Shown in pieces: positions 8,253 to 40,264 of a DNA stretch of 64,000 bases (positions are counted from its first letter, which is position 1; every line of letters starts with the position of its first letter). The notes under the pieces were generated by a model. That model was given only the letters and a program-made list of their open reading frames with translations, had not been told where the DNA came from and made no database searches. The position numbers were made by a program, and so were the translations under genes. Source of the DNA: Pseudomonadota bacterium (GTDB lineage Bacteria; Pseudomonadota; Gammaproteobacteria; Burkholderiales; SG8-39); assembly GCA_947455195.1 (NCBI GenBank), contig CANGMI010000001.1, positions 558,001-622,000 of the forward strand, given 5' to 3'.

Positions 8253-9377
8253 TCAGTCCACCTTGAGCCCGATGGTGCGGGCGAGCCGGCCAAACCGCTC
8301 CAGATCGGCGGCGAGAATCGCGGCGGCTTCACGCGGTGTACTGATGCCGGGGGCAAACCCCTGCGCGAGCAGTTTCTCCTGCACGGCCTTGCGCGACAGC
8401 CCCTGCAGCACCGCCGCATGGATGCGTTCGGCAATCGGCAAGGGCGTCTGGGCAGGTGCCATCAGCCCGAACCACTGGTCGACCTCGTAACCGGGCAAGC
8501 CCTGCTCGGCAATCGTGGGAATCTCGGGGGCCACGGCGATGCGGGTGCGACTGGTGACCCCGAGCACGCGCAAGCGACCCTGCTGGGCGTGCGGCAGGAT
8601 GTTGGCTGCCGTGTTGATCGCCACCGGCGCCACCCCGGCCAGCACATCGGTGAGGGCCGGCGCACACCCCTTGTAGGGCACATGGGCCATGTCGGTGCCG
8701 GTCATCATCTTGAACATCTCGCCAGCCAGTTGCTGGGGTGAGCCGTTGCCACACGAGGTATAGGCCAGCGTGCCCGGGCGGCTCTTGAGCAGCGCGACGA
8801 ACTCGGCGACATTTCGCGCCGACATCGTCGGCGTCATCGCGATCATGAGTGGCGTGGTCGCCACGAGCGTCACCGGCAGGAAGTCACGCGCGGTGTCGAA
8901 GGGCAGGCCTTGCAGCACCACCGCATTGATCGCAAACGAACTCGTCACCATCAGCAGGGTGAGCCCGTCCGGTGCACTGCGAGCCACCGCCTCGCTGGCG
9001 ATCGAACCGTTGCCGCCCGGGCGGTTTTCCACCAGCACCGGCTGCCCCAGCAAGGGCGATATCTCCTGGGCAATGAGCCGCGCCAGGATGTCAGTACCGC
9101 CGCCCGGCGGAAAGGTGACGAGAATGCGCACGGGTCGCTGCGGCCAGGACGCCGTGCCTTGCGCGAAAGCGCCCTGCCCGCGTGCGGTGTCGAGCCCCAT
9201 GTCGAGTCCCAGGGCAAGCGCCACCCCGAGGACCACGCCAAGCCTGCTGCACGGCTGCCGCACGGCAAGAACAGGGCCCCCCCCGGCTCGCCGAACGACG
9301 CGAGCCCAGCCGAGACAGTCGGTGAGGAAGGCGTGCGCGGCTCGCCGCGCCAGCGCCAGGTTGCGTGCCGGCCTCAT
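8253..9377 (-). CDS. Bug-family (TctC) periplasmic solute receptor
   Basis: 374-residue receptor of the tripartite tricarboxylate transporter / Bug family, abundant in Burkholderiales. Visible landmarks: WPQRPVRILVTFPPGGGTDI, VLVENRPGGNGSIASEAVA, LAYTSCGNGSPQQLAGEMF, HVPYKGCAPALTDVLAG and IPTIAEQGLPGYEV. ATG at 9377 overlaps the stop of the upstream molybdenum hydroxylase gene (ATGA), but it leaves a long leader before the hydrophobic signal segment, so an internal GTG near residue 39 could be the true start. No TctA/TctB membrane genes are adjacent, which is normal for this family. The ligand is unknown. Confidence 0.9.
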   Translation of the reverse strand: MRPARNLALARRAAHAFLTDCLGWARVVRRAGGGPVLAVRQPCSRLGVVLGVALALGLDMGLDTARGQGAFAQGTASWPQRPVRILVTFPPGGGTDILARLIAQEISPLLGQPVLVENRPGGNGSIASEAVARSAPDGLTLLMVTSSFAINAVVLQGLPFDTARDFLPVTLVATTPLMIAMTPTMSARNVAEFVALLKSRPGTLAYTSCGNGSPQQLAGEMFKMMTGTDMAHVPYKGCAPALTDVLAGVAPVAINTAANILPHAQQGRLRVLGVTSRTRIAVAPEIPTIAEQGLPGYEVDQWFGLMAPAQTPLPIAERIHAAVLQGLSRKAVQEKLLAQGFAPGISTPREAAAILAADLERFGRLARTIGLKVD

Positions 9378-11794
9378 GGGCGGGCCGCCTGCAGTGCCCG
9401 CCAGATCTTCTGCGCCGTGAACGGCATCGTGAGGTCGGTGACACCCTGCGGCCCGAGCGCATCGAGGAGCGCGCTGGCGAGGGCGGCCGGCGCGCCAATC
9501 GTGCCCGACTCGCCGCAGCCCTTGGCTCCGAGCGGGTTGTGGGTGCAGGGTCGGCTCTCGTCGGTTTCGCTCGAAATCGAGGGCAATCCGTCAGCGCGCG
9601 GCATCGTGTAGTCCATGAACGAGGCGGTGTAGAGTTGCCCCGATTCCGGATCGTATTCGGTGCCCTCCCACAACCCCTGCCCGACCCCCTGGGCGATGGC
9701 GCCATGCACCTGCCCCTCGACGATCATCGGGTTGATCACCGTACCGATGTCATCGACCGCCGCATAACGGTCCAGGTACACCACGCCTGTGTCCGGATCG
9801 ATCTCGACCTCGCAGGCCTGTGCCCCATTGGACCACGTGAGATTCACCGGGTCGTAGAAGGCCTGCTCGTGTAGCACCGGTTCCATGCCCGGGGGCAGGC
9901 GATGCGCGTAGGCCGCAGCCCGTGCGACATCGGGAAAACCGATGCTGCGATCGGTACCGGTCACCCTGAACTGGCCACGCCCCGCCACGATCTCGTGCTC
10001 GACATCGGCTTCAGCCGCCTCGAGCAGATGCGCGGCCAGCCGCCGGGCCTTGGCCACGATGCGCTCGCAGGCCGTGACGATGGCCGAGCCGCCAATCGCC
10101 ATCGAACGCGAGCCAAAGGTACCGGTGCCATAAGGCACCCGACCCGTGTCACCCTCGACGATCTCGATCTGCGCGATCGGGACGCCGATGCGGTGCGCGA
10201 CCAGTTGCGCGAAACTCGTGGCATGCCCCTGGCCATGGTTCTGGGTGCCGCAGCAGACCACGAGGCTGCCATCGGCCGCGACCCGGATCTCGGCCGACTC
10301 GAAGAATCCGGCCCGTGCGCCAAAGAGCCCGGCGTATTTCGACGGGGCGACCCCCGAGCTCTCGACGAAATAGCTGATGCCAAACCCACGCAATCGACCC
10401 TGGGCCGCACTGCGCGCACGCCGCTCGGCGAAACCGGCATGATCGGCCAGTTCGAGCACACGATCGAAGAGTCGCCCGAAGTCACCGGTGTCATAGGTCG
10501 GACCGACCGCAGTGGTGTAGGGCATCTGTTCGGCGGTGATGAAGTTGCGTCGACGCAGGGCCATTCGATCGAAGCCGAGCGTGGCCGCCGCCTTTTCGAC
10601 CAGTCGCTCGAGTACGTAGCAGGCCTCGGGGCGTCCGGCGCCGCGGTAGGCGTCGGTAGGTACGGTGTGGGTAAAGAGGGTTCGTACCTCGACATCGATC
10701 TGGGGAATGCGATACGGGCCCGAGAGCACCCCGGTATAGACCGACGTGGGGACGGCAGCGCCTACCGTGGACACCCAGGCCCCGAGTGCAGCCAGCGTAC
10801 GCACCCGCATCGCGAGAAAGTGGCCTTCGGCATCGAGCGCCAGCTCGGCATGGGTGCGGTGATCGCGCGCCTGGTAATCGCTCATGAACGCCTCGGCGCG
10901 CGTCGATACCCAGCGCAGCGGTCGCCCGAGGCGCCGCGCGGCCCAGGCGAGCACCGTCTCTTCGGGGTAATGCTTGCCCTTGGTACCGAAGCCGCCGCCG
11001 ACATCGGGCGCGATGACCCGGATGGCGTTCTCGGGCAGCGCCAGCTGCTCGGAGACGAGTTTCCGGATGTGATGCGGTACCTGGGTCGTCGAATAGATGA
11101 CCACTTCGTGCCCGCTCGCCCCCCCGTCTGCAGCGGGTACGGCCACGACCGCGCGCGGTTCCATCGCAGCGCAGGCCAGGCGCTGATTCACCAGGTCGAT
11201 GCTCACCCGGTGCGTGGCCGACGCAAACGCGGCGTCGACCGCGGCCACCGAGCCGCGCGCGAATCGCAGCGACAGATTGCCCGGCGCCTGCGGATGCACC
11301 TGGGGCGCCCCTGGCAAGGCAGCCGCGGCCACATCAACCACGGCCGGCAAGGGAGTCCACTCGACCTCGAGTGCCTCGGCGGCGTCGAGAGCCTCCTCCC
11401 GCGTGCTGGCAACGACGATGGCGACTGCCTCACCGACATGACGCACCAGCCCCTGGGCGAGGGAGGGGCGCGGGGGCTCCACCATCACCGAACCCTCGGC
11501 ACCCGGAATATTCCAGAGGGACCGCATCGGGCCGACCTGATCGGCCACCAGATCGGCACCGGCGAGCACCGACACCACGCCCGGCATCGCCAGAACGCGC
11601 TGGCTCGCTGCTGGCGCGATCGGTGCAAATTGCGCATGCGCATGCGGCGAACGCACGAACGCGACATGCAACGCACCCTCGAAGCGCAGGTCGGCCACGT
11701 AGCGTCCGCGCCCGGTGAGAAAGCGCTGATCCTCGCGCCGGCGCACCGGTGCGCCGATGCCCTCGAAGCCGGGTATCGCCACGGGCGCGTTCAT
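9374..11794 (-). CDS. Molybdenum hydroxylase large subunit (CoxL/XdhB-like), orphan
   Basis: 806-residue molybdopterin-binding subunit of the xanthine oxidase family. In order: an N-terminal a/b hammerhead domain (RFLTGRGRYVADL, FVRSPHAHA), the molybdenum-binding core with DVGGGFGTKG and AYRGAGRPEA, GTQNHGQGHATSFAQL, and the catalytic glutamate loop GAKGCGESGTIGAPA. The loop AYRGAGR rather than AYxCSFR places it with 'form II' CO-dehydrogenase-like or other aldehyde/heterocycle hydroxylases, not with true CO dehydrogenase. ATG at 11794 overlaps the ABC-F stop (ATGA). The FAD and [2Fe-2S] subunits normally needed for electron transfer are absent from the window. Confidence 0.9.
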   Translation of the reverse strand: MNAPVAIPGFEGIGAPVRRREDQRFLTGRGRYVADLRFEGALHVAFVRSPHAHAQFAPIAPAASQRVLAMPGVVSVLAGADLVADQVGPMRSLWNIPGAEGSVMVEPPRPSLAQGLVRHVGEAVAIVVASTREEALDAAEALEVEWTPLPAVVDVAAAALPGAPQVHPQAPGNLSLRFARGSVAAVDAAFASATHRVSIDLVNQRLACAAMEPRAVVAVPAADGGASGHEVVIYSTTQVPHHIRKLVSEQLALPENAIRVIAPDVGGGFGTKGKHYPEETVLAWAARRLGRPLRWVSTRAEAFMSDYQARDHRTHAELALDAEGHFLAMRVRTLAALGAWVSTVGAAVPTSVYTGVLSGPYRIPQIDVEVRTLFTHTVPTDAYRGAGRPEACYVLERLVEKAAATLGFDRMALRRRNFITAEQMPYTTAVGPTYDTGDFGRLFDRVLELADHAGFAERRARSAAQGRLRGFGISYFVESSGVAPSKYAGLFGARAGFFESAEIRVAADGSLVVCCGTQNHGQGHATSFAQLVAHRIGVPIAQIEIVEGDTGRVPYGTGTFGSRSMAIGGSAIVTACERIVAKARRLAAHLLEAAEADVEHEIVAGRGQFRVTGTDRSIGFPDVARAAAYAHRLPPGMEPVLHEQAFYDPVNLTWSNGAQACEVEIDPDTGVVYLDRYAAVDDIGTVINPMIVEGQVHGAIAQGVGQGLWEGTEYDPESGQLYTASFMDYTMPRADGLPSISSETDESRPCTHNPLGAKGCGESGTIGAPAALASALLDALGPQGVTDLTMPFTAQKIWRALQAARP

Positions 11795-13788
11795 GACAAC
11801 ACCTTCAGGCGCGCCTCGAGCGCCTCCCAACGTGCCAGGGCCTGCATGAGTTCCTCCTCGATATGCTGATGACGTTCGCCCAGCTCGGCAGCCCGTCGCG
11901 AATCCGACCGAAACACCGCGCCATCGGCCAGTTCGGCCGCAATCGACGACTGCTCGGCTTCCAGTGCCTCGATCAGGGCAGGTAATCGATCAAGCTCCTG
12001 CTGCTCACGATAGCTCAGCTTGGGGCGTGATGATGCGACAGGTACGCTGACCCGTGGCGCGCTGACCGGGGGCGCGCTGACCGGCGCTGCGGCTACCGAT
12101 GCCGATGCCGTGCCGGAACGCGCCGACGCAGCGGCTCCGCCGGCGCCCGAGACGACGGCATCACCAGTGGCCAGTGCGGTGCGTTCGCGGGCATCGAGAT
12201 AATCCTGATAGCCACCTGCATACTCCCGCCACACGCCGTTACCTTCGGCCGCGATCGTCTGCGTGACCACGTTGTCGAGAAACGTGCGGTCATGGCTCAC
12301 GAGAAAGAGCGTGCCCGTGTAGGCACCAAGCAGTTCCTCGAGCAGTTCGAGGGTGTCGATGTCCAGATCATTGGTCGGCTCGTCGAGCACCAGCACATTG
12401 GCGGGGCGGGCGAAAAGCCGCGCGAGCAGCAGCCGATTGCGCTCCCCCCCGGAGAGCGTGCGTACCGGGGAGCGGGCCCGCTCGGGGGCGAAGAGAAAGT
12501 CTCCCAGGTAGCTCATCACATGGGTGCGACGGCCGCCGATCTCGACCCACTCGGAGCCTGGGCTGATGGTGTCGGCGAGCGTGGCCTCGTCATCGAGCTG
12601 CTCGCGCATCTGGTCGAAGTAGGCCACCTCGATCTGGGTACCGCGCCGCACCGTGCCGGCATCGGGCTCGAGCGTACCGAGGATGAGCCGCAGCAGGGTG
12701 GTCTTGCCCGCCCCGTTGGGGCCGATGAGCCCGACCTTGTCACCGCGTGCGATGCGCGCGGTGAAGTCGTGCACGATCGGGCGCCCAGCGAACGACTTGC
12801 TGACGCCGGTGAGTTCCGCCACGAGGCGCCCCGACCGGTCGCCGGTGGCCAGACTCATCTGCACGCTGCCGGCGAGCGAGCGACGCTGCGAGCGCTCGAT
12901 GCGCAAGGCTTCGAGCCGCCGTACCCGACCCTCATTGCGCGTGCGCCGCGCCTCGACCCCCTTTCGGATCCACACCTCCTCCTGGGCCAGCAGCTTGTCG
13001 AAGCGCCGGTCGGCGGCCTGTTCGGCGGCGAGCTCAGCCTCCTTGCGCTCGCGATACTCGCGATAACTGCCCGGATAACTGCGCAGCACGCCACGATCGA
13101 GTTCGACGATGCGATTGGCAACGGCATCGAGAAAGCTGCGGTCGTGGGTAATGACCACCACCGCGCCACGCCAGCTCGCGATGAGCTCTTCGAGCCAGGC
13201 AATCGAACCCAGATCGAGGTGATTGGTGGGCTCATCGAGGAGCAGCAGATCGGGCTCGATCACCAGAGCCCGCGCAATGGCGACGCGTTTGCGCATGCCA
13301 CCCGAGAGCGTGTCGACCACCGCCACCGGCGAAAGCCCGAGACGGTCCAGCACCTGCTCGACCCGAAGGCGCGACTGCCACGCACCCGAGCGTTCGAGTT
13401 CGGACTGCAGCTCGGCGTATTCGCGCAGCAGCGCATCGGCGGTAGCTGCGTCGTGGGAGCCTGCCAGTGCGTCGGTCAACTGCTCGAAACGGGCCAGCGA
13501 ACGCGCCTGCCCCCCGAGGCCGCTTGCAACCGCCTCGAACACCGTGGCACCGGCCTCGAAGACTGGCTCCTGCGGCACACTGGCCACACGCAGCCCGCCT
13601 TGCAGGGTCACCCGGCCGTCATCGAGTGCCGTCTCGCCAGCCAGCACCCGCAGCAAGGACGACTTCCCGGTACCGTTGCGACCGACCAGACCGATGTGCT
13701 CACCCGTCTCGATCGACAGTTCAGCGGCGTCGAGCAGCGGATGGTGCCCGTAGGCGAGGTGGGCATTGCCCAGGGTGATCAGTGACAT
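11791..13788 (-). CDS. uup: ABC-F family ATPase, Uup-like
   Basis: 665-residue soluble protein with two ABC domains and no membrane segment. Domain 1: Walker A GRNGTGKSS, signature LSGGMRKR, Walker B LLLLDEPTNHLD; domain 2: GPNGAGKTT, LSGGERNR, LVLDEPTNDLDI. A linker of Ala/Pro/Ser/Val repeats precedes a C-terminal coiled-coil (about the last 80 residues) typical of Uup, a ribosome- or DNA-structure-associated ATPase. ATG at 13788 fits the family start, though no clear ribosome-binding site is present; the upstream open frame is not domain-like. It heads a coupled chain with the molybdenum hydroxylase and the Bug gene. Confidence 0.9.
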   Translation of the reverse strand: MSLITLGNAHLAYGHHPLLDAAELSIETGEHIGLVGRNGTGKSSLLRVLAGETALDDGRVTLQGGLRVASVPQEPVFEAGATVFEAVASGLGGQARSLARFEQLTDALAGSHDAATADALLREYAELQSELERSGAWQSRLRVEQVLDRLGLSPVAVVDTLSGGMRKRVAIARALVIEPDLLLLDEPTNHLDLGSIAWLEELIASWRGAVVVITHDRSFLDAVANRIVELDRGVLRSYPGSYREYRERKEAELAAEQAADRRFDKLLAQEEVWIRKGVEARRTRNEGRVRRLEALRIERSQRRSLAGSVQMSLATGDRSGRLVAELTGVSKSFAGRPIVHDFTARIARGDKVGLIGPNGAGKTTLLRLILGTLEPDAGTVRRGTQIEVAYFDQMREQLDDEATLADTISPGSEWVEIGGRRTHVMSYLGDFLFAPERARSPVRTLSGGERNRLLLARLFARPANVLVLDEPTNDLDIDTLELLEELLGAYTGTLFLVSHDRTFLDNVVTQTIAAEGNGVWREYAGGYQDYLDARERTALATGDAVVSGAGGAAASARSGTASASVAAAPVSAPPVSAPRVSVPVASSRPKLSYREQQELDRLPALIEALEAEQSSIAAELADGAVFRSDSRRAAELGERHQHIEEELMQALARWEALEARLKVLS
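12041..12085 (+). repeat. Three 15-base tandem repeats in the uup linker
   Basis: Units GGTACGCTGACCCGT, GGCGCGCTGACCGGG and GGCGCGCTGACCGGC lie head to tail and encode the Pro/Val/Ser-rich linker between the second ATPase domain and the C-terminal coiled coil of the ABC-F protein. Such in-frame repeats can change copy number without breaking the frame. Confidence 0.7.
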
Positions 13789-13943
13789 GAGGGGGCCGGC
13801 CGGTGAATCGAAACAAGGGTTTGGAGATGCCCGGCCGTGAGCGGCGCGGGAAGGCAGAGCCCGGCGCGAAAGGCCGGGGTGCGCGGCTCGATGATAGCCT
13901 GAGCGCGCGGCGCCCCCCGCTGCCCACACCCCTCGCGGGCCGA

Positions 13944-13949
13944 TATACT
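13944..13949 (+). promoter_or_regulatory. -10 box (TATACT) upstream of the ThDP enzyme gene
   Basis: TATACT lies 36 bases before the ATG at 13985 in the 196-base divergent gap between uup and the ThDP enzyme. No good -35 hexamer is seen at 16-18 bases upstream. A weak ribosome-binding site (CCGGAG) precedes the ATG. Confidence 0.4.
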
Positions 13950-13984
13950 CCGCGCTCAACGCCCAAGGCAACACCGGAGACAGC

Positions 13985-15721
13985 ATGGACCCCCGCCCCG
14001 AAGACACCCTGCACACCACCTCGCACTACTTCCTCGAAGGGTTGAACGAGATCGGGGTCGACTATCTCTTCTGCAACTTCGGCACCGACCATGCGCCCCT
14101 CATCGAGGAGATGGCCCGCTGGAAGCGTGAAGGGCGTGCCTTCCCGCCCACCATCCTTTGCCCGCACGAGAACACTGCGATGCACATGGCAGCGGGCTAC
14201 GCCGCCATCACCGGCCGCGGCCAGGCGGTGATCGTGCACGTGGATGCGGGCACGGCCAACTGCGTGCTGGGGGCCCACAACATCCGCCGCTCGCGCACGC
14301 CTCTCCTTCTCATGGCCGGAAAGGCGCCCTTCACCGCACACGGTGAGCTCGAAGGCTCACGTGACAACTACGTGCACTTCGTGCAGGAGCCCTTTGACCA
14401 GGCAAGCCTGGTGCGTCCGTACGTGAAATGGGAGTGGACGCTGCCCTCGGGCGTCATCACCAAGGAAGTGCTGCGCCGCGCCCACACGGTATCGCACAGC
14501 GACCCCAAGGGTCCGATCTACCTGATGCTGCCGCGCGAAACCCTCGCTGAAACCTGGGCCGAGAGCGCGGTGCACGCCTACCCGGCCGAGCGCTATGGGC
14601 GTGCCTCGAGCGGCATGGCCGACCCGGCGGCCATCGACCAGCTGGCCGACCGGCTGCTGGCCGCCGAGCGCCCGACGATGTACACGGCTTACGCGGGTCG
14701 CAACCATGCGGCGCCGGCGATCATCGACGCACTCGCCACCTTCCTCGGCATGGGTGTGGTCGATTCGAGCCCGATTCACCTCAACCTGCCGCACGACTCG
14801 CCGAATTTCCTGGGTTCGACCCCGGCCGACCACGTGCCCGACACCGACGTGGGCCTGCTGGTGGATGTCGACGTGCCGTGGATCCCGAAACTCACGCGTG
14901 AGAACTCGGCCACCTGGTGGGCCCATGTCGACATCGATGTCGTGAAGCAGGACTTCCCGATGTGGGGTTTTGCCACCAACCTGCGGGTGCAGGGCGACAG
15001 CACGCTGATCCTCGGTCAGATCCTCGCCGCGGTGCAGGCGCGCGCCACACCGGCTGACCTCGAGCGGGCCGCCGCGCGACGCGCTGCCGTCACCGCGCGC
15101 AGTCAGGCGCGCCGCGAGCGCCTCGCGGCTGCCGCAGCGCAGCCGGGCACCCCCGGCAACATCAACCCGGCCTGGATCTGTGCCCAGATCGCGACCCGAC
15201 TCGCCCCCGAGGACATCATCGTGAACGAGGCGGTGCGCAACGCGCCCAACGTACTCAACCATGTACCCCGCACGGTACCGGGCACCTACATCGGCTTTGC
15301 CGGTGGCGGCCTCGGTGGTGCCGCTGGCCTTGCACTCGGCGCCAAGCTCGCGGCACCCTCGGCGCAGGTCGTGCAGTTCATCGGCGACGGGGGCTTCTAC
15401 TTCAACAACCCATCGTCGACCTACGCGGTGGCTCGCCAGTACAAGCTGCCGATCTTCACGGTGGTGTTCGACAACGGCGGTTGGTCAGCCGTCAAGGAGG
15501 CCACGCTGCGCATGTACGCCGAAGGCGAGGCCGCGGACACCCGCGAGTTCCAGGCCCATCTGGCCCCCGACGTGCAGTACGCCGATGTGGTGCGGTCGGC
15601 CGGTGGCCATGGCGAGACCATCGCCGACCCGGCGGCACTGCCCGATGCCATCGATCGCTGTCTTGCGTCCCTGCGCGAGGGACGTGCGGCATTGCTGCAT
15701 GTGAAGGTTCCGCGCATCTGA
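13985..15721 (+). CDS. Thiamine diphosphate-dependent enzyme, acetolactate synthase-like
   Basis: 578-residue enzyme with the three-domain ThDP fold shared by acetolactate synthases, benzoylformate decarboxylases and other 2-oxo-acid decarboxylases. The N-terminal domain has the ThDP-activating glutamate in CPHENTAMHMAAGYA; the central domain is about residues 205-340; the C-terminal domain has the metal/pyrophosphate motif GDGGFYFNNPSSTY ending in VVFDNGGW. Specificity cannot be read from these motifs. It is 52 bases upstream of a TRAP receptor gene whose relatives bind 2-oxo acids, so decarboxylation or ligation of an imported 2-oxo acid is a reasonable guess. No small regulatory subunit of acetolactate synthase accompanies it, arguing against a biosynthetic role. 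Confidence 0.85.
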   Translation: MDPRPEDTLHTTSHYFLEGLNEIGVDYLFCNFGTDHAPLIEEMARWKREGRAFPPTILCPHENTAMHMAAGYAAITGRGQAVIVHVDAGTANCVLGAHNIRRSRTPLLLMAGKAPFTAHGELEGSRDNYVHFVQEPFDQASLVRPYVKWEWTLPSGVITKEVLRRAHTVSHSDPKGPIYLMLPRETLAETWAESAVHAYPAERYGRASSGMADPAAIDQLADRLLAAERPTMYTAYAGRNHAAPAIIDALATFLGMGVVDSSPIHLNLPHDSPNFLGSTPADHVPDTDVGLLVDVDVPWIPKLTRENSATWWAHVDIDVVKQDFPMWGFATNLRVQGDSTLILGQILAAVQARATPADLERAAARRAAVTARSQARRERLAAAAAQPGTPGNINPAWICAQIATRLAPEDIIVNEAVRNAPNVLNHVPRTVPGTYIGFAGGGLGGAAGLALGAKLAAPSAQVVQFIGDGGFYFNNPSSTYAVARQYKLPIFTVVFDNGGWSAVKEATLRMYAEGEAADTREFQAHLAPDVQYADVVRSAGGHGETIADPAALPDAIDRCLASLREGRAALLHVKVPRI

Positions 15722-15773
15722 GCACCCCGGGCGGTCGTCGAGGCCGCATCGTTCAATCTAGTGGAGATACCCG

Positions 15774-16856
15774 ATGTCACGACGTCAATTCCTGCAGCGT
15801 TCGGCAATCGCCGGCGCCGGCGCGCTGGCAGTACCGGCCGCCATCGCACAGAGCGGCCCGCAGATCCGCTGGCGCATGACCAGCAGCTTTCCGAAGACGC
15901 TCGACACGCTCTTCGGGGCCGGCGAACTGATCGCGAAGCGCGTCGCGGCGGCCACCGGCGGACGCTTCGAGATTCGCACCTTCGCACCCGGTGAAATCGT
16001 GCCGGCGCTGCAGGTGGTCGACGCCGTCCAGAACGACACGGTCGAGATGGGCTACACCGCCGGCTACTATTACGTGGGCAAGGATCCGACGTTTGCCTTC
16101 GATACCGCGATGCCCTTCGGCCTCAATACCCGTCAGACCAATGCCTGGATGATGCAAGGCGGTGGCGACAAGCTGATGGAAGAGTTCTTCCGCCAGTACA
16201 ACATCAAGGCCATTGCGGCCGGCAACACCACCGCACAGATGGGCGGGTGGTACCGCCGCGAGTTCAATACCGTGAAAGACCTGCAGGGCATGAAGTTCCG
16301 CATCGCCGGCTTTGCCGGGCAGGTGCTGGCACGCCTGGGCGTCGTGCCGCAGCAGATTCCGGCCGGCGACATCTATTCATCGCTCGAGAAGGGCACGATC
16401 GATGCAGCCGAATGGGTAGGTCCGCATGATGACGAGAAGCTCGGCCTCGCCAAGGTGGCCAAGTACTACTACGCCCCGGCATTCTGGGAAGGCAGTGCGC
16501 AACTGTCCCTCTACATCAACCAGAAACAGTGGGACTCCTTGCCCCCCGAGTACAAGGCGATCCTCGAGGCAGCCTGTGCCGAGGCCGTGCTCTGGACCAC
16601 GGCGCGTTACGACGCGCTGAATCCGGCGGCGCTCAAGCGCATGGTGGCGGCCGGTGCGCAACTGCGCCGCTTCCCGCGCGTGGTGATGGAAGCAGCGTAC
16701 AAGGAAGCGCAAGCCCTGTACGCCGAAACCGCCGCCAAGAACGAGAACTTCCGCAAGGTGTACGAATCGTGGAACAAGTTCCGCATCGAGCAGGTGCAGT
16801 GGCACCAGGTGGCGGAAATGCCGTTCGACAACTTCATGGCGTCGATCAAGGGCTGA
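15774..16856 (+). CDS. dctP: TRAP transporter solute receptor (DctP family, TakP-like)
   Basis: 360-residue periplasmic receptor. The N-terminus SRRQFLQRSAIAGAGALAV has a twin-arginine motif followed by a hydrophobic stretch and an AIAQ cleavage site, so Tat export is likely. The mature domain has MTSSFPKTLDTLFGAGE, GNTTAQMGGWYRREF, VVPQQIPAGDIYSSLEKG and EWVGPHDDEKLGL, features I associate with the TakP/SmoM subgroup that binds 2-oxo acids as metal complexes. It directly follows the ThDP enzyme on the plus strand, but the matching membrane genes dctM and dctQ lie on the opposite strand and converge on it with only 10 bases between stop codons. Confidence 0.92.
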   Translation: MSRRQFLQRSAIAGAGALAVPAAIAQSGPQIRWRMTSSFPKTLDTLFGAGELIAKRVAAATGGRFEIRTFAPGEIVPALQVVDAVQNDTVEMGYTAGYYYVGKDPTFAFDTAMPFGLNTRQTNAWMMQGGGDKLMEEFFRQYNIKAIAAGNTTAQMGGWYRREFNTVKDLQGMKFRIAGFAGQVLARLGVVPQQIPAGDIYSSLEKGTIDAAEWVGPHDDEKLGLAKVAKYYYAPAFWEGSAQLSLYINQKQWDSLPPEYKAILEAACAEAVLWTTARYDALNPAALKRMVAAGAQLRRFPRVVMEAAYKEAQALYAETAAKNENFRKVYESWNKFRIEQVQWHQVAEMPFDNFMASIKG

Positions 16857-16866
16857 TGCCGGCGCG

Positions 16867-18357
16867 CTAGCGTGTGCCCGGTTCGCCCGAACCCGCCCCT
16901 GCCCCGGCAGGGGCGGTCGGTGCAGGACTGGCAAAGCCGCTGAAATCCGATCCCCCACCCTCGCTGGCCGCGTCGGGTTGCGAGGTATCAGCGGGCATTT
17001 CGATCTGTACCCGATCGAGATCGACCTTCTGCTCCACGTCGAGCCACATCGTCACCAGACCGGGCCAGGCGATGACGATGCCGGCCATCAGCACCTGCAG
17101 CAGCACCCACGGGATGGCCCCGAGATAGATGTCGCTGCTCTTCACGCTTTTCGGTGCAATGCCGCGCAAGTAGAACAGTGCGAAGCCGAAGGGTGGGTGC
17201 ATGAAGGAGGTCTGCATGTTCACGCACAGCAGAACGCCGAACCAGATGAGGTCGATGCCCATCTTGGCCGCCACCGGTGCCAGCAGCGGAATGATGATGA
17301 ACGCGATCTCGAAGAAGTCGAGAAAGAACGCGAGGAAGAACACGAAGAGATTGACGACCACCAGAAAGCCCGTCACGCCCCCGGGCAGGCTGGAGAGCAG
17401 GTGTTCGATCCAGACCCCGCCATCGACCCCGAGAAACACGAGACTGAACGTACGCGAGCCGATGAGGATGAACACCACCATGGCGGTGATGCGCATCGTC
17501 GACTCCATGCCCTGACGCACCAGCGTCCAGGTGAGCCTGCGGTGCATGGCAGCCAGCGCCATGGCCCCGACAGCCCCCATCGCGCCGGCTTCGGTCGGCG
17601 TGGCATATCCGAGAAAGATCGTACCGAGCACGAGGAAGATGAGGACGATCGAGGGCACCATGCCCCAGAGGACGCGGCGGATGAGCGGCCAGCCCTGCAG
17701 CGTGCGCGCTTCGCGCGGCAAGGGGGGGACCCATCGGGGCCGAAGTATCGACACCGCAAAGATGAAGAGAATGAAAAGCAGCGTCTGCATGATCGAGGGG
17801 CCGATCGCGCCCTTGTACATGTCGCCCACCGACTTGCCCATCTGATCGGCGAGCACGATCAGCACGAGCGAGGGCGGAATGAGCTGCGTGATGGTGCCCG
17901 AGGCCGCGATGACGCCGGTGGCGAGCTTCATGTCATAGCCGTACCGCTGCATGATCGGCAGCGAGATGAGACCCATCGCGATGACCGATGCGGCCACGGT
18001 GCCGGTGATTGCACCGAGGATGGCACCGACGATGATGACCGCGTAGGCCAATCCACCCGGCACTGGCCCGAACAGCTGCCCGGTGCCCTCGAGCAGGTCT
18101 TCGGCCAGACCGCAACGCTCGAGAATCGCGCCCATGAACGTGAAGAACGGAATGGCGAGCAGCAGATCGTTGGAGAGGATGCCAAAGATGTTGAGCGGCA
18201 GATTGCCGAAGAAGGCCGGCGTGAGATAGCCCAACTGAATCGCTGCGAGCCCGGCCGTGAGCCCGAGCGCCGCCAGCGAGAAGGCCACCGGAAACCCGAC
18301 CAGCATGAACAGCACCAGCCCGAGAAACATCAGCGGTGGCATCAGCGCCATGGTCAT
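16867..18357 (-). CDS. dctM: TRAP transporter large permease DctM
   Basis: 496-residue membrane protein of the TRAP large-subunit family, which couples solute uptake to Na+ or H+ gradients. It is hydrophobic throughout, with about 12 predicted spans (for example PLMFLGLVLFMLVGFPVAFS and GAITGTVAASVIAMGLIS) and the conserved NMQTSFMHPPFGFALFYL segment near the end. The final 60 or so residues form a hydrophilic Pro/Ala/Gly/Ser tail that family members usually lack. ATG overlaps the dctQ stop by 4 bases, so the two membrane subunits are cotranslated. The presumed receptor is encoded head-on at 15774-16856. Confidence 0.93.
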   Translation of the reverse strand: MTMALMPPLMFLGLVLFMLVGFPVAFSLAALGLTAGLAAIQLGYLTPAFFGNLPLNIFGILSNDLLLAIPFFTFMGAILERCGLAEDLLEGTGQLFGPVPGGLAYAVIIVGAILGAITGTVAASVIAMGLISLPIMQRYGYDMKLATGVIAASGTITQLIPPSLVLIVLADQMGKSVGDMYKGAIGPSIMQTLLFILFIFAVSILRPRWVPPLPREARTLQGWPLIRRVLWGMVPSIVLIFLVLGTIFLGYATPTEAGAMGAVGAMALAAMHRRLTWTLVRQGMESTMRITAMVVFILIGSRTFSLVFLGVDGGVWIEHLLSSLPGGVTGFLVVVNLFVFFLAFFLDFFEIAFIIIPLLAPVAAKMGIDLIWFGVLLCVNMQTSFMHPPFGFALFYLRGIAPKSVKSSDIYLGAIPWVLLQVLMAGIVIAWPGLVTMWLDVEQKVDLDRVQIEMPADTSQPDAASEGGGSDFSGFASPAPTAPAGAGAGSGEPGTR

Positions 18358-18911
18358 TGCAGGGGCCTCTCGTATTCGACATCCATGTCATGCAGGCCAC
18401 GCAGGTAGCCGATGCGCTTGACGATCTCGGCCAAGCCCTGCAGCGCGAGCATGGCGAACCCGACCGGCATCACCACCTTCACCCACCAGCGCGGCAGCCC
18501 CCCCGCATTGTTCGACATCTCGCCCGATGTGAACGACTCGAGGAAGAAAGGCCACGCCATCCACAGGAAGAGCGCGGTTGCCGGCATGAGGAAGAGAAGA
18601 AACCCGAGCAGATCGACCCAGGCCCGCGTACGCGGTGCAAGGCGGCCGTAGAGGATGTCGACCCGCACATGTTCGTTGACCTTGAGAACCCAGGGCGCAC
18701 CCAGCATCACGATGCCGGCGAACATGTACCACTGGGCCTCGAGCCATGCGTTGGAACTGCGATCGATGAGATAGCGCACGGTGGCATTGCCGGCACTCAC
18801 GACACACGAGGCGAGAATGAGCCAGCTCGCAAGACGCGCAAAACGCTCGCTCAGCCAGTCGATACCGCCTGCGACACGCAGCCATCCTCTCAATCGAGAT
18901 TCCCCCGTCAT
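18354..18911 (-). CDS. dctQ: TRAP transporter small permease DctQ
   Basis: 185-residue four-span membrane protein: spans are visible around LASWLILASCVVSAGNATV, the WLEAQWYMFAGIVML segment (the family WxxE/Q region), WVDLLGFLLFLMPATALFL and VVMPVGFAMLALQGLAEIV. It forms the small membrane subunit paired with DctM. ATG at 18911 is chosen because it begins a normal cytoplasmic leader; an in-frame ATG at 19010 would add about 33 non-homologous residues running toward the ribF promoter. First gene of the minus-strand dctQ-dctM pair. Confidence 0.88.
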   Translation of the reverse strand: MTGESRLRGWLRVAGGIDWLSERFARLASWLILASCVVSAGNATVRYLIDRSSNAWLEAQWYMFAGIVMLGAPWVLKVNEHVRVDILYGRLAPRTRAWVDLLGFLLFLMPATALFLWMAWPFFLESFTSGEMSNNAGGLPRWWVKVVMPVGFAMLALQGLAEIVKRIGYLRGLHDMDVEYERPLQ

Positions 18912-19024
18912 GACAACCGCAGGCCCGTGGTCCGGCCCGCCGCGGGGCACTCTGAGGCGGGCACCCGGAAATGTCAAACGACCGGCGCAGGCGGACGATG
19001 ACGATGCCAAGTATCGAAAAACGC

Positions 19025-19030
19025 TATAAT
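19025..19030 (+). promoter_or_regulatory. Consensus -10 box (TATAAT) before ribF
   Basis: A perfect TATAAT lies about 100 bases upstream of the ribF ATG, in the 217-base divergent gap with dctQ, the first low-GC island for several hundred bases. No convincing -35 hexamer is seen at the right distance. It probably drives the ribF-ileS-lspA(-ispH) operon and leaves a leader of roughly 90 bases. Confidence 0.5.
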
Positions 19031-19128
19031 TTTCCCTACGGGTGGCCTGTTGACCGACTCGGCGTCAGGGCCCGGCAGCGCGTCTGAGCTCAGCCCCTGC
19101 CTCGACGCCAGCGCCCCCTCCGATCCGA

Positions 19129-20193
19129 ATGCCCGTGGCGGTGCCCCTTCTTCCGATGACTATCGCGCATGGCTTGCATGTCGCCGATCGGCCGCTCGCG
19201 GTCATGATCGGCAACTTCGATGGTGTTCACCGTGGCCATCAGGCCATGGTGGAACGCACCCTGGCGGCTGCTCGCGAGCGCGGCCTGGGGGCCGCTGCGC
19301 TCACCTTCGAGCCGCACCCGCGCGAACTCTTCGCGGCAGCCACCGCGCCAGCGCGCATCACGCCCTTGCGCGAGAAACTGCGGCTGCTCACCGAACTCGG
19401 CCTCGACCACATTCACGTCGCACGCTTCACCCGTGCCTTTGCCGCGCTCACGCCCGAGGCCTTCGTCGACCAGATGCTGGTCAAGACCCTGCGTGCGCGC
19501 TGGCTCATGGTGGGCGCCGACTTCTGCTTCGGGGCGAAGCGTGCCGGTACCGTAGCGCGACTGCGGTCCCTCGCCAACGAGCGAGGCATCGAACTCGAAG
19601 TGCTTGACGATGTGCTCGAGGGCGCGGAGCGCATCTCGAGCTCGGTGGTACGAACCGCGCTCGATGCGGGCGATCTGGTGCGTGCACGCATCCTGCTCGG
19701 TCGCCCATTCCAGATCAGCGGGCGCGTGGTGCACGGGCAGAAACTGGGCCGAACGCTCGGCTTTCCGACCGCCAACATCCACCTCAAGTACAACCGCCCA
19801 CCGGTCTTCGGCATCTTCGCCGTGCGTGTGCATGGCGCAGGTGCAACGCCGCTCGATGCCGTGGCGAGCCTCGGGTTCCGCCCTACCGTCACCCGGGAAC
19901 GTCGCGCTTCGCTGGAAGTGTTCATCTTCGACTTCCAGGGCAACCTCTACGACCGGCGTCTGGACATCGAATTTGTCGCGAAGTTGCGTGACGAGGAAAC
20001 CTACGATGGCCTCGATGCCCTGAAGGCAGCGATTGCCCGCGACTGCACGAACGCGCTGGCGGTGCTGCGGCCTGACGCGGCGAGGCCGATGGCCGGCACG
20101 CTGTCATCCACCGCAGCACTCGGCGCAGCATCGGCACCGACGACACTCGCCTCCCCACACGCCACCCAGGGCCCCGACGCTTCCCATGGCTAA
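19129..20193 (+). CDS. ribF: Bifunctional riboflavin kinase / FAD synthetase RibF
   Basis: 354 residues, making FMN and then FAD from riboflavin. The N-terminal adenylyltransferase domain (to about residue 185) has [13 protein letters not shown] and [13 protein letters not shown]; the C-terminal kinase domain has [11 protein letters not shown] and the conserved SLGFRPT and EVFIFDF segments. The last 45 or so residues are a low-complexity Ala/Ser/Thr/Pro tail that most family members lack, and the ileS start codon lies inside its last codons (8-base overlap). An in-frame ATG nine codons downstream of the chosen start (19156) could be the true start. Confidence 0.95.
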
Positions 20194-24718: not shown

Positions 24719-27184
24719 TCAGCGCACCGCTGCCTCGCCCGTGATGGCGAGGTGCTCGGGCGGCAAGCCTGCCCGGTATCGTTCGTGCATCGCTCTGAAG
24801 GCTGACTCGATGTGCCGGGCGAACCTCGGCGTGTCGAAGAGGGCCGTCGTGAGGCGGTTGCGCGCAATCCTGTCCTTGATGCCGTGCAGGATTTCCGCGT
24901 CCGTGGCCAGGCAGACTGCGAGCGCCTCGTACTCGGCTTCGCTCGAGGTGATCAACTCGGGTACCTCGATGGCGGTGAGCAGGCTCGCGGCAACGCGACT
25001 CGCGAAGCTCTCGCCCGTGCGGGTGAGCACCGGCACGCCAGCCCACAGCGCATCGCTGGCGGTCGTGCCCGCGTTGTAGGGGAAGGTATCCAGAAAGAGG
25101 TCGGCCACGCGATAGCGAGCCAGATACAGGCTGCGCTCCATGCGCGAGGCAAACACGAGCCGATCGGCGCTGACCCCTCGGCGCTCTGCTTCGGCGCGCA
25201 GGTTCTGTCGGGCCTGCTCATGCTCGACATAGAGCAGCAACACCCCGTGGGCTACACGCCCCAGGATGCGCATCCACAGGGAGAAGGTCGCCGGCGTGAT
25301 CTTGAAATGGTTGTTCAGGCAGCAGAACACGAACGACGACTCGGGCAGTCCGACCTCGGCCCGCGTGAAGACCTTGTCTGCGATCGACCGGGTTCGGTCG
25401 TTGACCTGGTAGCTGGGCAGACAGACCACCTTCTCGACGTAATGCGCGCGACTCGCCTCCGGCACGAGGGTGGCGTCGGCCAGCAGGTAATCGTAGTAGT
25501 CGGCCCCCATCGTGCCCAGGTAGCCGATGTAGCTCGCCTGAACCGGTGCGGCCCGCAGCGCAAAGATGCCAGGCCGTGCGTCAGTCGTATGTCCGGTCAG
25601 GTCTACCGCGACATCGATGCCGAGTTCGCGCGACAGACCCGCCACGTCCCGATCACTCATGGTGGCAATGTCGATGAACCGGTCGAAGCCCCGGACAAGA
25701 CGCTGGTGCATGCTGTCGGTGCGAGGCGGCCCCGAATAGAAACCCACCACCTCGAACTGGTCGCGATCATGGAGTTCGATCAGTTCGGCCATGAGGTACG
25801 ACACCGGGTGCTCGCCAAAGTCGGCCGAGTAGTAGCCGATGCGAATCCTGCCCGGCGCAGGCGCCCTGGAGATCGCCCCGAGGGCGGCGTCATGCGGATA
25901 GCGCTCCGCCATCACGTCGCTTGCCACAAGGGCATGCAGTTCGGGCGCGTCGACCAAAGCCAGCAGCATGAAACAGTCGATGGGACGCCGCCCGGCCCGT
26001 ATCGCGCGAGCAATCTCGTCGGCCGCAGCATCGAAGGCGCGCCAGTCGCAGAGCAGCATCCGCAGATACTGTGCGTAGCCGGCGAGAAAGTCGGTGTCAG
26101 GCGCCAGTGCGCGGGCTCGCTCGCAACTGGTGAGAGCCTCATCGAGGCGATCGAGCCAGCGCAGGGCAACAGCCCGACTGAGATGCGCCTGGACCGAGTC
26201 GGGCTTTGCCTCGATGGCCCTGTCGTAGCTGACCAGCGCCTCGGCCCAGCGCTTGTTTTCCGCCAGAACGAGGCCCCGGTTGTGCCAGGCGTTCGCATGA
26301 CGAGGCGCACAGCCGATCGCCCGGTCGCAACTGGCCAGCGCCTCATCGAAACGCCTCAGCGCATGGTGGACTGTTCCGCGATTGTTCCAGGCGTCGGCAT
26401 AGTCGGGCCTGCAGCCGATGGCCTGGTCATAGGCCGACACGGCTTCATCCAGACGTCCGAGTGCCTGCAGGACGACCGCGCGGTGGTAGTGGGCTTCGGC
26501 CAGATCGGGCCGGACGGCAAGCGCTGCAGCGTGACTCGCCAGCGCGTCCTCGAGGCGATTGAGCGCCTGCAAGGCATTGCCGCGGTTGCACAAGGCCTCG
26601 GCGTAGTCAGGGCGTATGGCAAGGGCCGTGTCGTAGCTGGCCAGCGCCTCGTCGAACCGCTTGAGTGCCTGCAGTGCATTGCCCCGGTTGCTGTGTGCTT
26701 CGGCATGGTCTGGCCGAACGGCGATCGCCCGGTCGTGGCTCGCCAGTGCCGCCTCGGAACGCCCGAGTTTCTGCAAGGCCGTGCCTCGGTTGTTGTAAGC
26801 CTCGGCATGATCAGGCGCGATGGCCGTGGCGCGCGTGTAGCTCGTGACGGCCTCCTCGAGGCGGCCGAGCGCCTGCAGGGCGGCACCGTGGCTTGCCCAC
26901 GCATCGGCGAAGTCCGGCTTGATCTTGAGTGCCCGCGCAATCGACTGAAGCGCAAGCTCCGGTTGACCGGACTGCAAGGCCACCATGCCTGCGAGGTAGC
27001 GGGCCACGAAGTGCTTTGGCTGATGGGCGAGCACCTGCTCGTAGAGCCATCGGGCCTCGGCCAGGGCCCCTTGCTGATGCAGCGCCATGGCCTGCTGCAT
27101 CCATTGTGCCACCTGGAACGCCCTTGCATCGACCGGTGGACCACCGGGCGAACTCTGCACGCCACTACTGCCTTTACGGGCCAT
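24719..27184 (-). CDS. TPR-repeat O-GlcNAc transferase-like glycosyltransferase (GT41)
   Basis: 821-residue protein. Residues about 32-370 are some ten consecutive 34-residue TPR repeats (pattern ALQALGRLEEA...AIAPDHAEAYNNRG). The rest is a GT41 catalytic region: RIRIGYYSADFGEHPVSYL, DVAVDLTGHTTDARPGIFALR, PVQASYIGYLGTMG, FVFCCLNNHFKITP, then LFLDTFPYNAGTTASDALWAGVPVLT with the UDP-binding residues. GT41 members glycosylate Ser/Thr (OGT, SPINDLY) or Asn (HMW1C) of proteins. The target is unknown; the type IV pilus operon begins about 6 kb away. No signal peptide, so it should act in the cytoplasm. Confidence 0.88.
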   Translation of the reverse strand: MARKGSSGVQSSPGGPPVDARAFQVAQWMQQAMALHQQGALAEARWLYEQVLAHQPKHFVARYLAGMVALQSGQPELALQSIARALKIKPDFADAWASHGAALQALGRLEEAVTSYTRATAIAPDHAEAYNNRGTALQKLGRSEAALASHDRAIAVRPDHAEAHSNRGNALQALKRFDEALASYDTALAIRPDYAEALCNRGNALQALNRLEDALASHAAALAVRPDLAEAHYHRAVVLQALGRLDEAVSAYDQAIGCRPDYADAWNNRGTVHHALRRFDEALASCDRAIGCAPRHANAWHNRGLVLAENKRWAEALVSYDRAIEAKPDSVQAHLSRAVALRWLDRLDEALTSCERARALAPDTDFLAGYAQYLRMLLCDWRAFDAAADEIARAIRAGRRPIDCFMLLALVDAPELHALVASDVMAERYPHDAALGAISRAPAPGRIRIGYYSADFGEHPVSYLMAELIELHDRDQFEVVGFYSGPPRTDSMHQRLVRGFDRFIDIATMSDRDVAGLSRELGIDVAVDLTGHTTDARPGIFALRAAPVQASYIGYLGTMGADYYDYLLADATLVPEASRAHYVEKVVCLPSYQVNDRTRSIADKVFTRAEVGLPESSFVFCCLNNHFKITPATFSLWMRILGRVAHGVLLLYVEHEQARQNLRAEAERRGVSADRLVFASRMERSLYLARYRVADLFLDTFPYNAGTTASDALWAGVPVLTRTGESFASRVAASLLTAIEVPELITSSEAEYEALAVCLATDAEILHGIKDRIARNRLTTALFDTPRFARHIESAFRAMHERYRAGLPPEHLAITGEAAVR
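26070..27090 (-). repeat. Tandem 102-base repeats encoding TPR units
   Basis: About ten diverged units of 102 bases (34 codons) in register with the TPR repeats of the GT41 gene. Adjacent units share blocks such as the codons for EALASYD and NRGNALQAL, suggesting expansion by internal duplication. The central units are the most alike. Confidence 0.7.
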
Positions 27185-28268: not shown

Positions 28269-28769
28269 ATGAACACGCCGCGTACACGTCAGGAAGTTGC
28301 TGCTCTGCTGCAGGCTCACGGCGTCCACGCCACACGCCAGCGCATCGATGTGGCACATGCACTGTTCGGGCAGACTCGGCACCTGAGTGCCGAGGACATA
28401 CTGGAATATCTCAACACCGGGCCAACGACCGAGACGGATACAGACCTCGGCAGGGGACCTCTGGCGGGAAGGTCGAACGATCGCCCGGTGACACGCCGCG
28501 CCGTTTCCAAGGCCACCGTGTACAACACGCTGCGACTGCTGCTCGAGCGTGGTGCCATCAGGGCACTCGTGGTCGAAGCCACCCGGGTCCTGTACGACCC
28601 CAACAACGCGCCCCATCACCACTTCTTCAATACGCTCACGGGTGAACTCACCGACTTTCCGGCCGGACCGGTGACGGTGGAGGGGCTTCCCGTACCGCCC
28701 GCCGGCACCGTCGCCGACGGGGTGGATATCGTGGTCCGCATCCGCCCGACCGCGCAGACCAGCCGCTAA
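28269..28769 (+). CDS. Fur-family transcriptional regulator, Irr-like
   Basis: 166 residues. The winged-helix part has HATRQRIDVAHALF, HLSAEDILEYL and the recognition helix VSKATVYNTLRLLLERG; the dimer domain has the triple-histidine motif PHHHFFNTLTGEL. The CxxC zinc motif of Fur/Zur is absent, as in Irr-type regulators, and the haem motif CP seen in rhizobial Irr is also absent. About 20 extra residues (from TETDTDLGRG on) separate the two halves of the DNA-binding domain. ATG at 28269 is used; an in-frame ATG lies at 28248. Divergent from the TonB-like gene; its stop overlaps that of pilY1. Confidence 0.83.
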   Translation: MNTPRTRQEVAALLQAHGVHATRQRIDVAHALFGQTRHLSAEDILEYLNTGPTTETDTDLGRGPLAGRSNDRPVTRRAVSKATVYNTLRLLLERGAIRALVVEATRVLYDPNNAPHHHFFNTLTGELTDFPAGPVTVEGLPVPPAGTVADGVDIVVRIRPTAQTSR

Positions 28770-38923: not shown

Positions 38924-40264
38924 ATGTCCGATTCGCGCTTCGCAACCTCTCTGCCCCAACTCCGATCGATCGCCGCGCAGGCGCTCGACATCGCCGCCCG
39001 CACCGGCGCAACCGCCTGCGATCTCCATGTGTCGGAGGGCTTCGGGCAGACCGTCACCGTGCGCAAGGGCGAGGTCGAGACCATCGAACACAACCGCGAC
39101 AAGGAACTGGGCGTAACGGTCTACATCGGTCAGCAATCCGGCTTTGCCAGCACTTCCGACCTGGGACCGAAGGCTGTCGCCGACACGGTAGCGGCGGCCC
39201 TCGCCATCGCGCGGCACACGGCCAGCGATGACGCCAATGGCCTGGCCGAGCCCGAATTGCTCGTCCGAGAGGTGCGCGACCTCGACCTCTACCACCCGTG
39301 GGACCTCTCGGCCGACGACGCCATCGAGATGGCACGGGCCTGCGAAGCAGCCGCGTTTCGGCTCGACCCTCGCATCGACAACTCCGATGGTGCGAGCATC
39401 TCCACCCAGCAGTACCAGTTCGCGGCAGCGAACTCGAACGGCTTTCTGCAGGGCTACCAGACCTCGCGGCATTCGATTTCATGCGCCGTGATTGCCTCCG
39501 AGCGCGGCCAGATGCAGCGTGACGACTGGTACGCGAGCGCACGCGCAGCGAGCGACCTGCCCGACCCGGCCGCCATCGGCGAGTACGCGGGCCGGCGTAC
39601 CCTGGCTCGCCTTCGCAGCCGCAGCCTGAGCACCCGGCGCGTACCCATCCTGTTCGAGGCACCGGTGGCCGCAGGCCTCATCGGGCACTTCATCGGCGCG
39701 GTGAGTGGGGGCAGTCTCTATCGCAAGTCGTCTTTCCTGCTCGACTCGCTTGGCACCGAGGTGTTCTCGCCCATCGTCAACCTGCGCGAAGACCCGCATA
39801 TCCTGCGTGGACTCGCCTCGGGCTGCTTCGATGACGACGGGGTCACGACGCATGCCCGCGATGTCGTCCGGGATGGCATCGTGCAGGGCTACTTCCTCGG
39901 CACCTACTCGGCACGCAAGCTCGGCATGCAGACCACCGGCAATGCGGGGGGCTCGCACAACCTCATCCTCGCCCCGGGCGAACACGATCTGGAGGGACTG
40001 TTGCGCGAGATGGGCACCGGGCTCCTCGTCACCGACCTCATGGGGCAGGGTGTCAACTCGGTCACCGGTGACTACTCGCGCGGTGCTGCCGGATTCTGGG
40101 TGCAGGGCGGGCGCATCCGCCATCCGGTCGAGGAGGTCACCATTGCCGGCAACCTGCGCGACATGTTCCGCGGCATCGTGGCCATCGGGCGCGACACGCT
40201 GGTGCGCGGTTCGCGCAGCAACGGCTCCATTCTGGTCGAAGGCATGACCGTGGCCGGGCGCTAG
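38924..40264 (+). CDS. pmbA: Metalloprotease PmbA/TldE
   Basis: 446-residue TldE-type subunit of the TldD/E protease, which degrades unfolded small peptides and processes microcin-type precursors in E. coli. Visible: VRKGEVETIEHNRDKELGVTVYIG, DGASISTQQYQFAAANSNGF, SRHSISCAVIA, the C-terminal TTGNAGGSHNLIL and MGQGVNSVTGDYSRGAAGFWV, all standard for PmbA. TldE itself lacks the metal-binding HExxxH helix, and none is seen here. The partner tldD is not in the window. The ATG has no strong ribosome-binding site. Confidence 0.95.
   Translation: MSDSRFATSLPQLRSIAAQALDIAARTGATACDLHVSEGFGQTVTVRKGEVETIEHNRDKELGVTVYIGQQSGFASTSDLGPKAVADTVAAALAIARHTASDDANGLAEPELLVREVRDLDLYHPWDLSADDAIEMARACEAAAFRLDPRIDNSDGASISTQQYQFAAANSNGFLQGYQTSRHSISCAVIASERGQMQRDDWYASARAASDLPDPAAIGEYAGRRTLARLRSRSLSTRRVPILFEAPVAAGLIGHFIGAVSGGSLYRKSSFLLDSLGTEVFSPIVNLREDPHILRGLASGCFDDDGVTTHARDVVRDGIVQGYFLGTYSARKLGMQTTGNAGGSHNLILAPGEHDLEGLLREMGTGLLVTDLMGQGVNSVTGDYSRGAAGFWVQGGRIRHPVEEVTIAGNLRDMFRGIVAIGRDTLVRGSRSNGSILVEGMTVAGR

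Follow-up and report, generated by a model that had tools for sequence, protein, structure and literature searches.

The window analysed here is a stretch of 64,000 nucleotides of contig CANGMI010000001.1 (assembly GCA_947455195.1, Burkholderiales). At positions 13985-18911 it holds the genes of a tripartite ATP-independent periplasmic (TRAP) importer beside the gene of a thiamine diphosphate (ThDP)-dependent enzyme (Table 1). An earlier reading, made from the letters alone (below, the sequence-only reading), had the receptor gene standing with the ThDP gene and facing dctQ and dctM on the opposite strand, the two stop codons being 10 bases apart. Open reading frames, Pfam and NCBIfam confirm this arrangement and all four family identities (ThDP enzyme, DctP, DctM and DctQ), and by open reading frames and Pfam the TRAP gene set is complete, with receptor, small and large permease genes together. 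The receptor gene begins 52 bases after the ThDP gene, and dctQ and dctM overlap by 4 bases. DctM scores 297 bits with PF06808 and 310.6 with TIGR00786 (cut-off 268), DctQ 86.7 bits with PF04290. Past dctQ lie ribF (by Pfam) and then ileS (named from its sequence).

Table 1. Genes and intergenic regions at and next to the locus, in window coordinates.
Feature	Position	Strand	Remarks
ThDP-dependent enzyme gene	13985-15721	+	578 aa; NF006203/PRK08327, TPP_enzyme_N and C, benzoylformate-decarboxylase-like fold
TRAP receptor gene (DctP, TakP group)	15774-16856	+	360 aa; PF03480, phmmer, six ligand residues, TIGR01409
Gap between convergent stop codons of receptor gene and dctM	16857-16866	.	10 bases
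dctM, large TRAP permease subunit, convergent with receptor gene	16867-18357	-	496 aa; PF06808, TIGR00786
dctQ, small TRAP permease subunit	18354-18911	-	185 aa from ATG at 18911; PF04290
Divergent intergenic region between ABC-F type gene and ThDP gene	13789-13984	.	Alignment of three genus genomes
ABC-F type ATPase gene, upstream of and divergent from ThDP gene	11794-13788	-	
Molybdopterin hydroxylase large subunit gene	9377-11794	-	
TctC receptor gene	8256-9236	-	

The receptor belongs to the DctP fold family (PF03480, 209 bits, cut-off 23.4). Searched against solved chains with phmmer, it gave 412 bits to 4yzz/4yic (named TRAP solute-binding protein), 409 to TakP (2hzk/2hzl), 337 to 7ug8 ('ketoacid-binding protein'), 233 to 5cm6 and 230 to 4pet; the best chain beyond the six TakP-like ones gave 91 bits, so TakP is closer than other solved DctP receptors. 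The receptor tree took in TakP-like rows only, and closeness to TakP versus other DctP groups is judged from the phmmer scores. According to passages of the TakP study, the cation-pyruvate pair is bound by Tyr100, Gln156, Arg177, Glu214, Trp215 and Glu240 (PMC1839085). The window receptor keeps all six, as Tyr99, Gln155, Arg176, Glu213, Trp214 and Glu239, three of which (Q155, E213 and W214) lie in the segments GNTTAQMGGW and EWVGPHDDEKLG. From these segments, both present as quoted, the sequence-only reading had associated the receptor with the TakP group, and that placement stands; its use of SmoM as a rival group falls away, since the same passages give SmoM as the former name of TakP (PMC1839085). 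Across 56 receptors, four of them PDB references, Gln156, Arg177 and Glu214 (TakP numbering) are present in 56/56, Glu240 in 55/56, Trp215 in 50/56 and Tyr100 in 49/56. The hydrophobic cavity is nearly as in TakP (F39, L46, A96, Y98, T152, A211, A212, A242, L244), and TIGR01409 matches above cut-off, predicting a twin-arginine signal. The best prediction for the receptor, well supported by these residues, is binding of a cation together with a monocarboxylic 2-oxo acid, and the importer very probably brings in pyruvate-like 2-oxo acids. Passages of the TakP study expect poor binding of ligands with charged or polar groups and observed it for 2-oxoglutarate (PMC1839085).

The enzyme scores 635 bits with NF006203/PRK08327 ('thiamine pyrophosphate-requiring protein', cut-off 456), over profile positions 7-570 of 571. 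No model of a family with a known other substrate reached its cut-off among the best 25 models, and 2-oxo-acid decarboxylases are among the fold neighbours, in agreement with the sequence-only view that ThDP enzymes of this fold act on 2-oxo acids; the benzoylformate decarboxylase (BFDC) model NF005485 gave 134 bits against a cut-off of 493. An alignment of 33 sequences (the window's and 32 of 50 relative loci) shows Glu62, GDG 467-469 and N497 invariant, with His85 and GTD 33-35 nearly so. In pairwise alignments Glu62 and His85 fall on what we take to be Glu47 and His70 of BFDC. An AlphaFold2 model (predicted local distance difference test score 88.5, predicted template modelling score 0.90) has as its nearest PDB folds benzoylformate and 4-hydroxybenzoylformate decarboxylases, formolase variants of BFDC, HKA synthase and benzaldehyde lyase, and 2-hydroxyacyl-coenzyme A (CoA) lyases are also among the matches. 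The substrate cannot be read off the model, because identity to these neighbours is only about 20%. The likeness to BFDC as MdlC of the mandelate pathway extends to the fold and presumably to the Glu and His just named; at about 20% identity the window enzyme differs from it in falling into a separate NCBIfam family and in having no mandelate pathway genes among the annotated window neighbours. A second NF006203-family enzyme of the same genome (L127, on contig C4) is 51% identical; its gene comes immediately after one for a TctC receptor, the two overlapping by about 1 base in the gene call.

The statement that TRAP genes normally form one operon describes the genome itself, where 13 receptor/dctM pairs lie adjacent, at distances up to about 2 kb, 11 of them codirectional and two convergent, and two further dctM matches have no nearby receptor; it does not describe this receptor lineage. 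In a survey of 300 genomes of the order, 94 dctM matches were paired with at least 150 receptor matches. Among the matches listed, 25 dctM genes had no receptor on the contig and 69 had one. The 69 comprise convergent pairs within 1 kb (34), at 1-12 kb (15) and further off (4), codirectional pairs within 1 kb (14) and further off (2), and no divergent pair. Among adjacent pairs, most homologous systems of the order are convergent (34 of 48), and the idea that this is a special feature of the present locus was rejected. Because the layout belongs to the importer, convergence alone is no signal of separate regulation with the enzyme. A regulatory overlap conserved at 10 bases was also rejected, since the gap measures 50 and 110 bases in the two relatives of the genus. 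A perfect 11-base inverted repeat with a 2-base loop lies at 16893-16916, near the 3′ end of dctM and 36 bases past the receptor stop; it is absent from the terminator-like sites of our terminator scan.

What sets the locus apart from its convergent relatives is the gene before the receptor. Convergent loci were fetched with longer flanks, and in the 23 outside the genus with a visible upstream gene a same-strand pmbA precedes the receptor 11 times and a ThDP gene never (0/23). These systems (e.g. L105, L109 and L115) share the layout of receptor against dctM-dctQ, and in 13 convergent loci outside the genus the receptor is 56-64% identical to the window's. At L102 and L103 the contig ends upstream of the receptor and pmbA lies on the dctQ side; at L110 a distant ThDP-like gene lies several kb off, also on the dctQ side. 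The identity of pmbA comes from Pfam in L102, L109 and L115 and from similarity elsewhere.

Several other TRAP systems were seen in passing. In a second TakP-type system of the genome (L131, C3:405700-422700) the genes all run in one direction (Q, M, P). Identity to the window's counterparts is 72-74% for its dctM and 52-54% for its receptor, which groups with 4yzz; a Rieske/VanA-type oxygenase gene and a quinolinate phosphoribosyltransferase gene lie nearby. A second convergent dctM/dctP pair, at C7:301676-303863, has a more distant receptor (PF03480, 98 bits versus 210 for the window's). The 31 DctM proteins compared fall into length classes of about 530-610 residues (L102, L103, L105, L108-L111, L115 and L138) and about 434-513 (the other 22). 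Seven loci (L107, L116, L117, L119, L120, L134 and L137) have TakP-type receptors with no dctM within about 5-6 kb on each side and are possible orphan receptors; in L107, L117 and L137 pmbA stands directly before this receptor.

In all three genomes of the genus (the window's, G326 at locus L009 and G180 at L010) the enzyme, receptor, dctM and dctQ genes stand in the same order. Among the loci examined the pairing of receptor and enzyme is found in this one genus only, so the claim that the two are kept together holds within the genus and not for homologous loci outside it, where one of the outcomes that the sequence-only reading had named as refuting it is thus observed. In the 98 genomes of the taxonomic family a close receptor occurs in 58.

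The surroundings of related enzymes were counted in 38 loci of at least 45% identity, leaving out a duplicate contig (L121), short or weaker matches and the window. A TctC gene is directly adjacent in 14, an aldehyde dehydrogenase gene immediately follows the enzyme gene in 6 (two of which are TctC loci as well), and a DctP gene is adjacent in 2, both of the window's genus. TctC makes up 16/71 of the enzyme's adjacent genes versus 21/308 of those three or more places away (Fisher p = 0.00024, of less true weight because several loci are close relatives). The TctC loci thus show the same enzyme family adjoining an extracytoplasmic receptor gene, the difference being that their receptor is of the tripartite tricarboxylate class and not TRAP. 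Five neighbouring aldehyde dehydrogenases were scanned and none reached cut-off among the models listed; the nearest were succinate-semialdehyde dehydrogenase (four) and the benzaldehyde dehydrogenase MdlD (L051, a locus whose ThDP enzyme shares only 32-33% identity with that of the window). Near the enzyme of the gammaproteobacterial locus L037 are an FMN-dependent dehydrogenase, from a family whose members oxidise 2-hydroxy acids, and one subunit of a ring-hydroxylating dioxygenase. The TctC, aldehyde dehydrogenase and L037 neighbours of some relatives point to acid catabolism.

A GGAG precedes the receptor ATG in the window and in both genus relatives, and the terminator scan placed no terminator-like site within the 52-base gap. 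In the divergent intergenic region a TATACT-like stretch (GCCGATATACT) is kept in the alignment of the three genus genomes and is a putative promoter. The terminator scan returned four terminator-like sites, a number not above that in shuffled sequences, and a search of 11500-19500 for RNA elements and riboswitches found none at gathering cut-offs.

The genes around the locus differ between relatives. In genome G143 pmbA and dctP abut, and a single small gene separates ribF-ileS from murJ and a sirB1-like gene; in the window pmbA (38960-40261) directly adjoins murJ (40274-41809), and dctQ lies next to ribF. In G241, of the same taxonomic family, one small gene stands between ribF and dctM-dctQ, and the receptor gene, preceded by murJ and a sirB1-like gene, sits at the end of a contig (L133, L180); convergence in that genome is therefore inferred by bridging two contig ends. 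A regional rearrangement, with the ThDP gene arriving before the receptor, would be the simplest account. The nearest relatives of the genus differ by tree, being f3 and f49 for the receptor (88/79) and f6 and f10 for dctM (87/85), with supports below the starred level, and the stem of the genus is 0.39 long for the receptor versus 0.17 for dctM. A single shared history of receptor and permease was tentatively rejected on this placing next to different relatives, at those supports; the disagreement and the longer receptor stem leave room for a possible receptor exchange or faster change. Elsewhere in the window, both on the minus strand, are genes for a 1547-aa protein with a PilY1 beta-propeller domain (28769-33409) and a TPR/glycosyltransferase-41 protein (24722-27100).

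We tentatively lean toward the view that an older 2-oxo-acid TRAP importer was joined, in this genus specifically, to the gene of a ThDP enzyme that uses the imported acid. The TakP-type importer (receptor, DctQ and DctM) would take up small monocarboxylic 2-oxo acids with a cation. The NF006203-family gene would have come to sit before the receptor gene in this genus, where the two are probably cotranscribed, and the enzyme would decarboxylate (or carboligate) the imported 2-oxo acid in the cytoplasm. The convergence of receptor and dctQM would be inherited from the importer and play no part in the coupling to the enzyme. Both the reaction and a substrate common to receptor and enzyme are plausible at this stage, and the sequence-only interpretation of a 2-oxo-acid uptake and decarboxylation unit is as a whole partly supported.

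Several observations weigh against this joining of importer and enzyme. Cotranscription is a presumption, and a sigma-70 consensus scan found no sigma-70-like promoter site. Sequence alone gives no enzyme substrate. The receptor pocket of the ThDP-linked genus is not clearly different from that of receptors without the enzyme and so gives no sign of adaptation to it; a pocket specific to the ThDP-linked clade was sought and not found, the recurring Gly at TakP position 98 and Ala at 243 both occurring elsewhere. The whole segment from the ABC-F gene through the ThDP, receptor, dctM, dctQ and ribF genes to ileS is kept in the genus, so the keeping of the pair alone is no sign of selection. In the other 26 enzyme-bearing genomes of the family (of 95 outside the genus) the enzyme is, among the matches listed, never on the receptor's contig, which is no proof since contigs are often short. 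Finally, 18 of the 38 enzyme loci, some at contig ends, have neither TctC, aldehyde dehydrogenase nor DctP adjacent, and their annotated neighbours are mixed (e.g. amidohydrolase, metallo-beta-lactamase fold, DinB and luciferase-like proteins).

A possible but less probable explanation is chance adjacency, a rearrangement having placed an unrelated ThDP gene before an ordinary 2-oxo-acid TRAP importer, so that the two share a promoter region at most and not a substrate. The pair was found in one genus only and stands at a rearrangement, as the differing pmbA, murJ and ribF neighbours of G143 and the window show. In G241 the receptor gene follows murJ and the sirB1-like gene, and the NF006203 gene adjoins tctC on a different contig (L122). 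The genome also has about 15 ThDP genes of the enzyme's superfamily (17 matches, some of them pieces of a single gene). A rough estimate for an assumed total of 4,300 genes, with these roughly 15 ThDP genes and two TakP-type receptors, nevertheless gives 0.007 expected direct upstream neighbours, half of them on the same strand, and the NF006203 relatives that adjoin TctC genes show that the enzyme sits beside solute receptors elsewhere too.

Rather unlikely is a CoA thioester substrate, as in 2-hydroxyacyl-CoA lyase or oxalyl-CoA decarboxylase, for which the imported free acid would first be activated elsewhere. At L023, L026 and L040 a class III CoA-transferase gene directly precedes the enzyme gene with an overlap of about 1 base and an aldehyde dehydrogenase gene follows it, neighbours to be expected of a lyase whose products are formyl-CoA and an aldehyde; this hint at CoA esters also counts against a free 2-oxo acid as substrate. 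Formyl-CoA transferase models match the L026 and L040 CoA-transferases below their cut-offs. Among the enzyme's own matches are 2-hydroxyacyl-CoA lyases, by sequence and by fold, and oxalyl-CoA decarboxylase, by sequence. Their models score far below cut-off, however (95 versus 600 bits and 70 versus 557 bits, respectively), and the three CoA-transferase loci are alike, with a similar layout and enzymes 55% identical to the window's. Neither in the window nor in its two close relatives does a CoA-transferase gene adjoin the enzyme gene, which is flanked there by the ABC-F type gene and the receptor gene. The His at the position we take to be BFDC His70 (in VHVDAGT) is nearly invariant, and CoA-type lyases are not known to have it.

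Least probable is biosynthetic carboligation, in which imported pyruvate or 2-oxobutyrate would be condensed, acetolactate synthase-like, for branched-chain amino acids or acetoin: several acetolactate synthase models match across most of the enzyme and its alignment has an FVQEPFDQ stretch that we take to resemble the FQE motif of acetohydroxyacid synthase, but those models, among the matches listed, reach 67-119 bits versus cut-offs of 363-976 (118.6 versus 587 for the best, 115.8 versus 363 for another), and some relatives have aldehyde dehydrogenase and TctC receptor genes alongside, which speaks for catabolism. Passages of the TakP study do propose TakP as a supplier of intermediates for valine and isoleucine synthesis (PMC1839085).

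The closest known system is that of TakP in Rhodobacter sphaeroides, of the same receptor group and with the Na+-pyruvate residues all kept here (passages of PMC1839085). There, homologues of dctQ and dctM lie directly downstream of takP (same passages), whereas in the window they approach the receptor gene from the opposite strand, with a ThDP gene in front of it. A precedent for a decarboxylase beside an importer is found in arylmalonate decarboxylase genes, which according to passages of PMC4996985 adjoin tripartite tricarboxylate transporter, TRAP or ABC transporter genes, the importer class varying by cluster; that enzyme differs in being unrelated and cofactor-free. Searches of open-access papers gave, among the papers listed and in passages of PMC1839085, PMC5812351 and PMC4996985, no description of such a locus or of convergent TRAP genes, which at open-access scope is weak evidence of absence, and found no paper on PRK08327.

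More broadly, and doubtfully, NF006203 enzymes may all be catabolic 2-oxo-acid decarboxylases coupled to receptors, their gene moving between the periplasmic receptors of two unrelated importer classes, tripartite tricarboxylate (TctC) and TRAP (TakP); the linked receptor would then reveal the substrate, and the window would hold the TRAP form, fixed in one genus. The NCBIfam name of the family carries no substrate, and a close member occurs in 29 of the 98 genomes of the taxonomic family; the ligand class of TakP-type receptors is well defined and would give a short substrate list for this orphan enzyme family. That convergent receptor/dctQM genes predominate in this lineage is a small correction that TRAP annotation can reuse.

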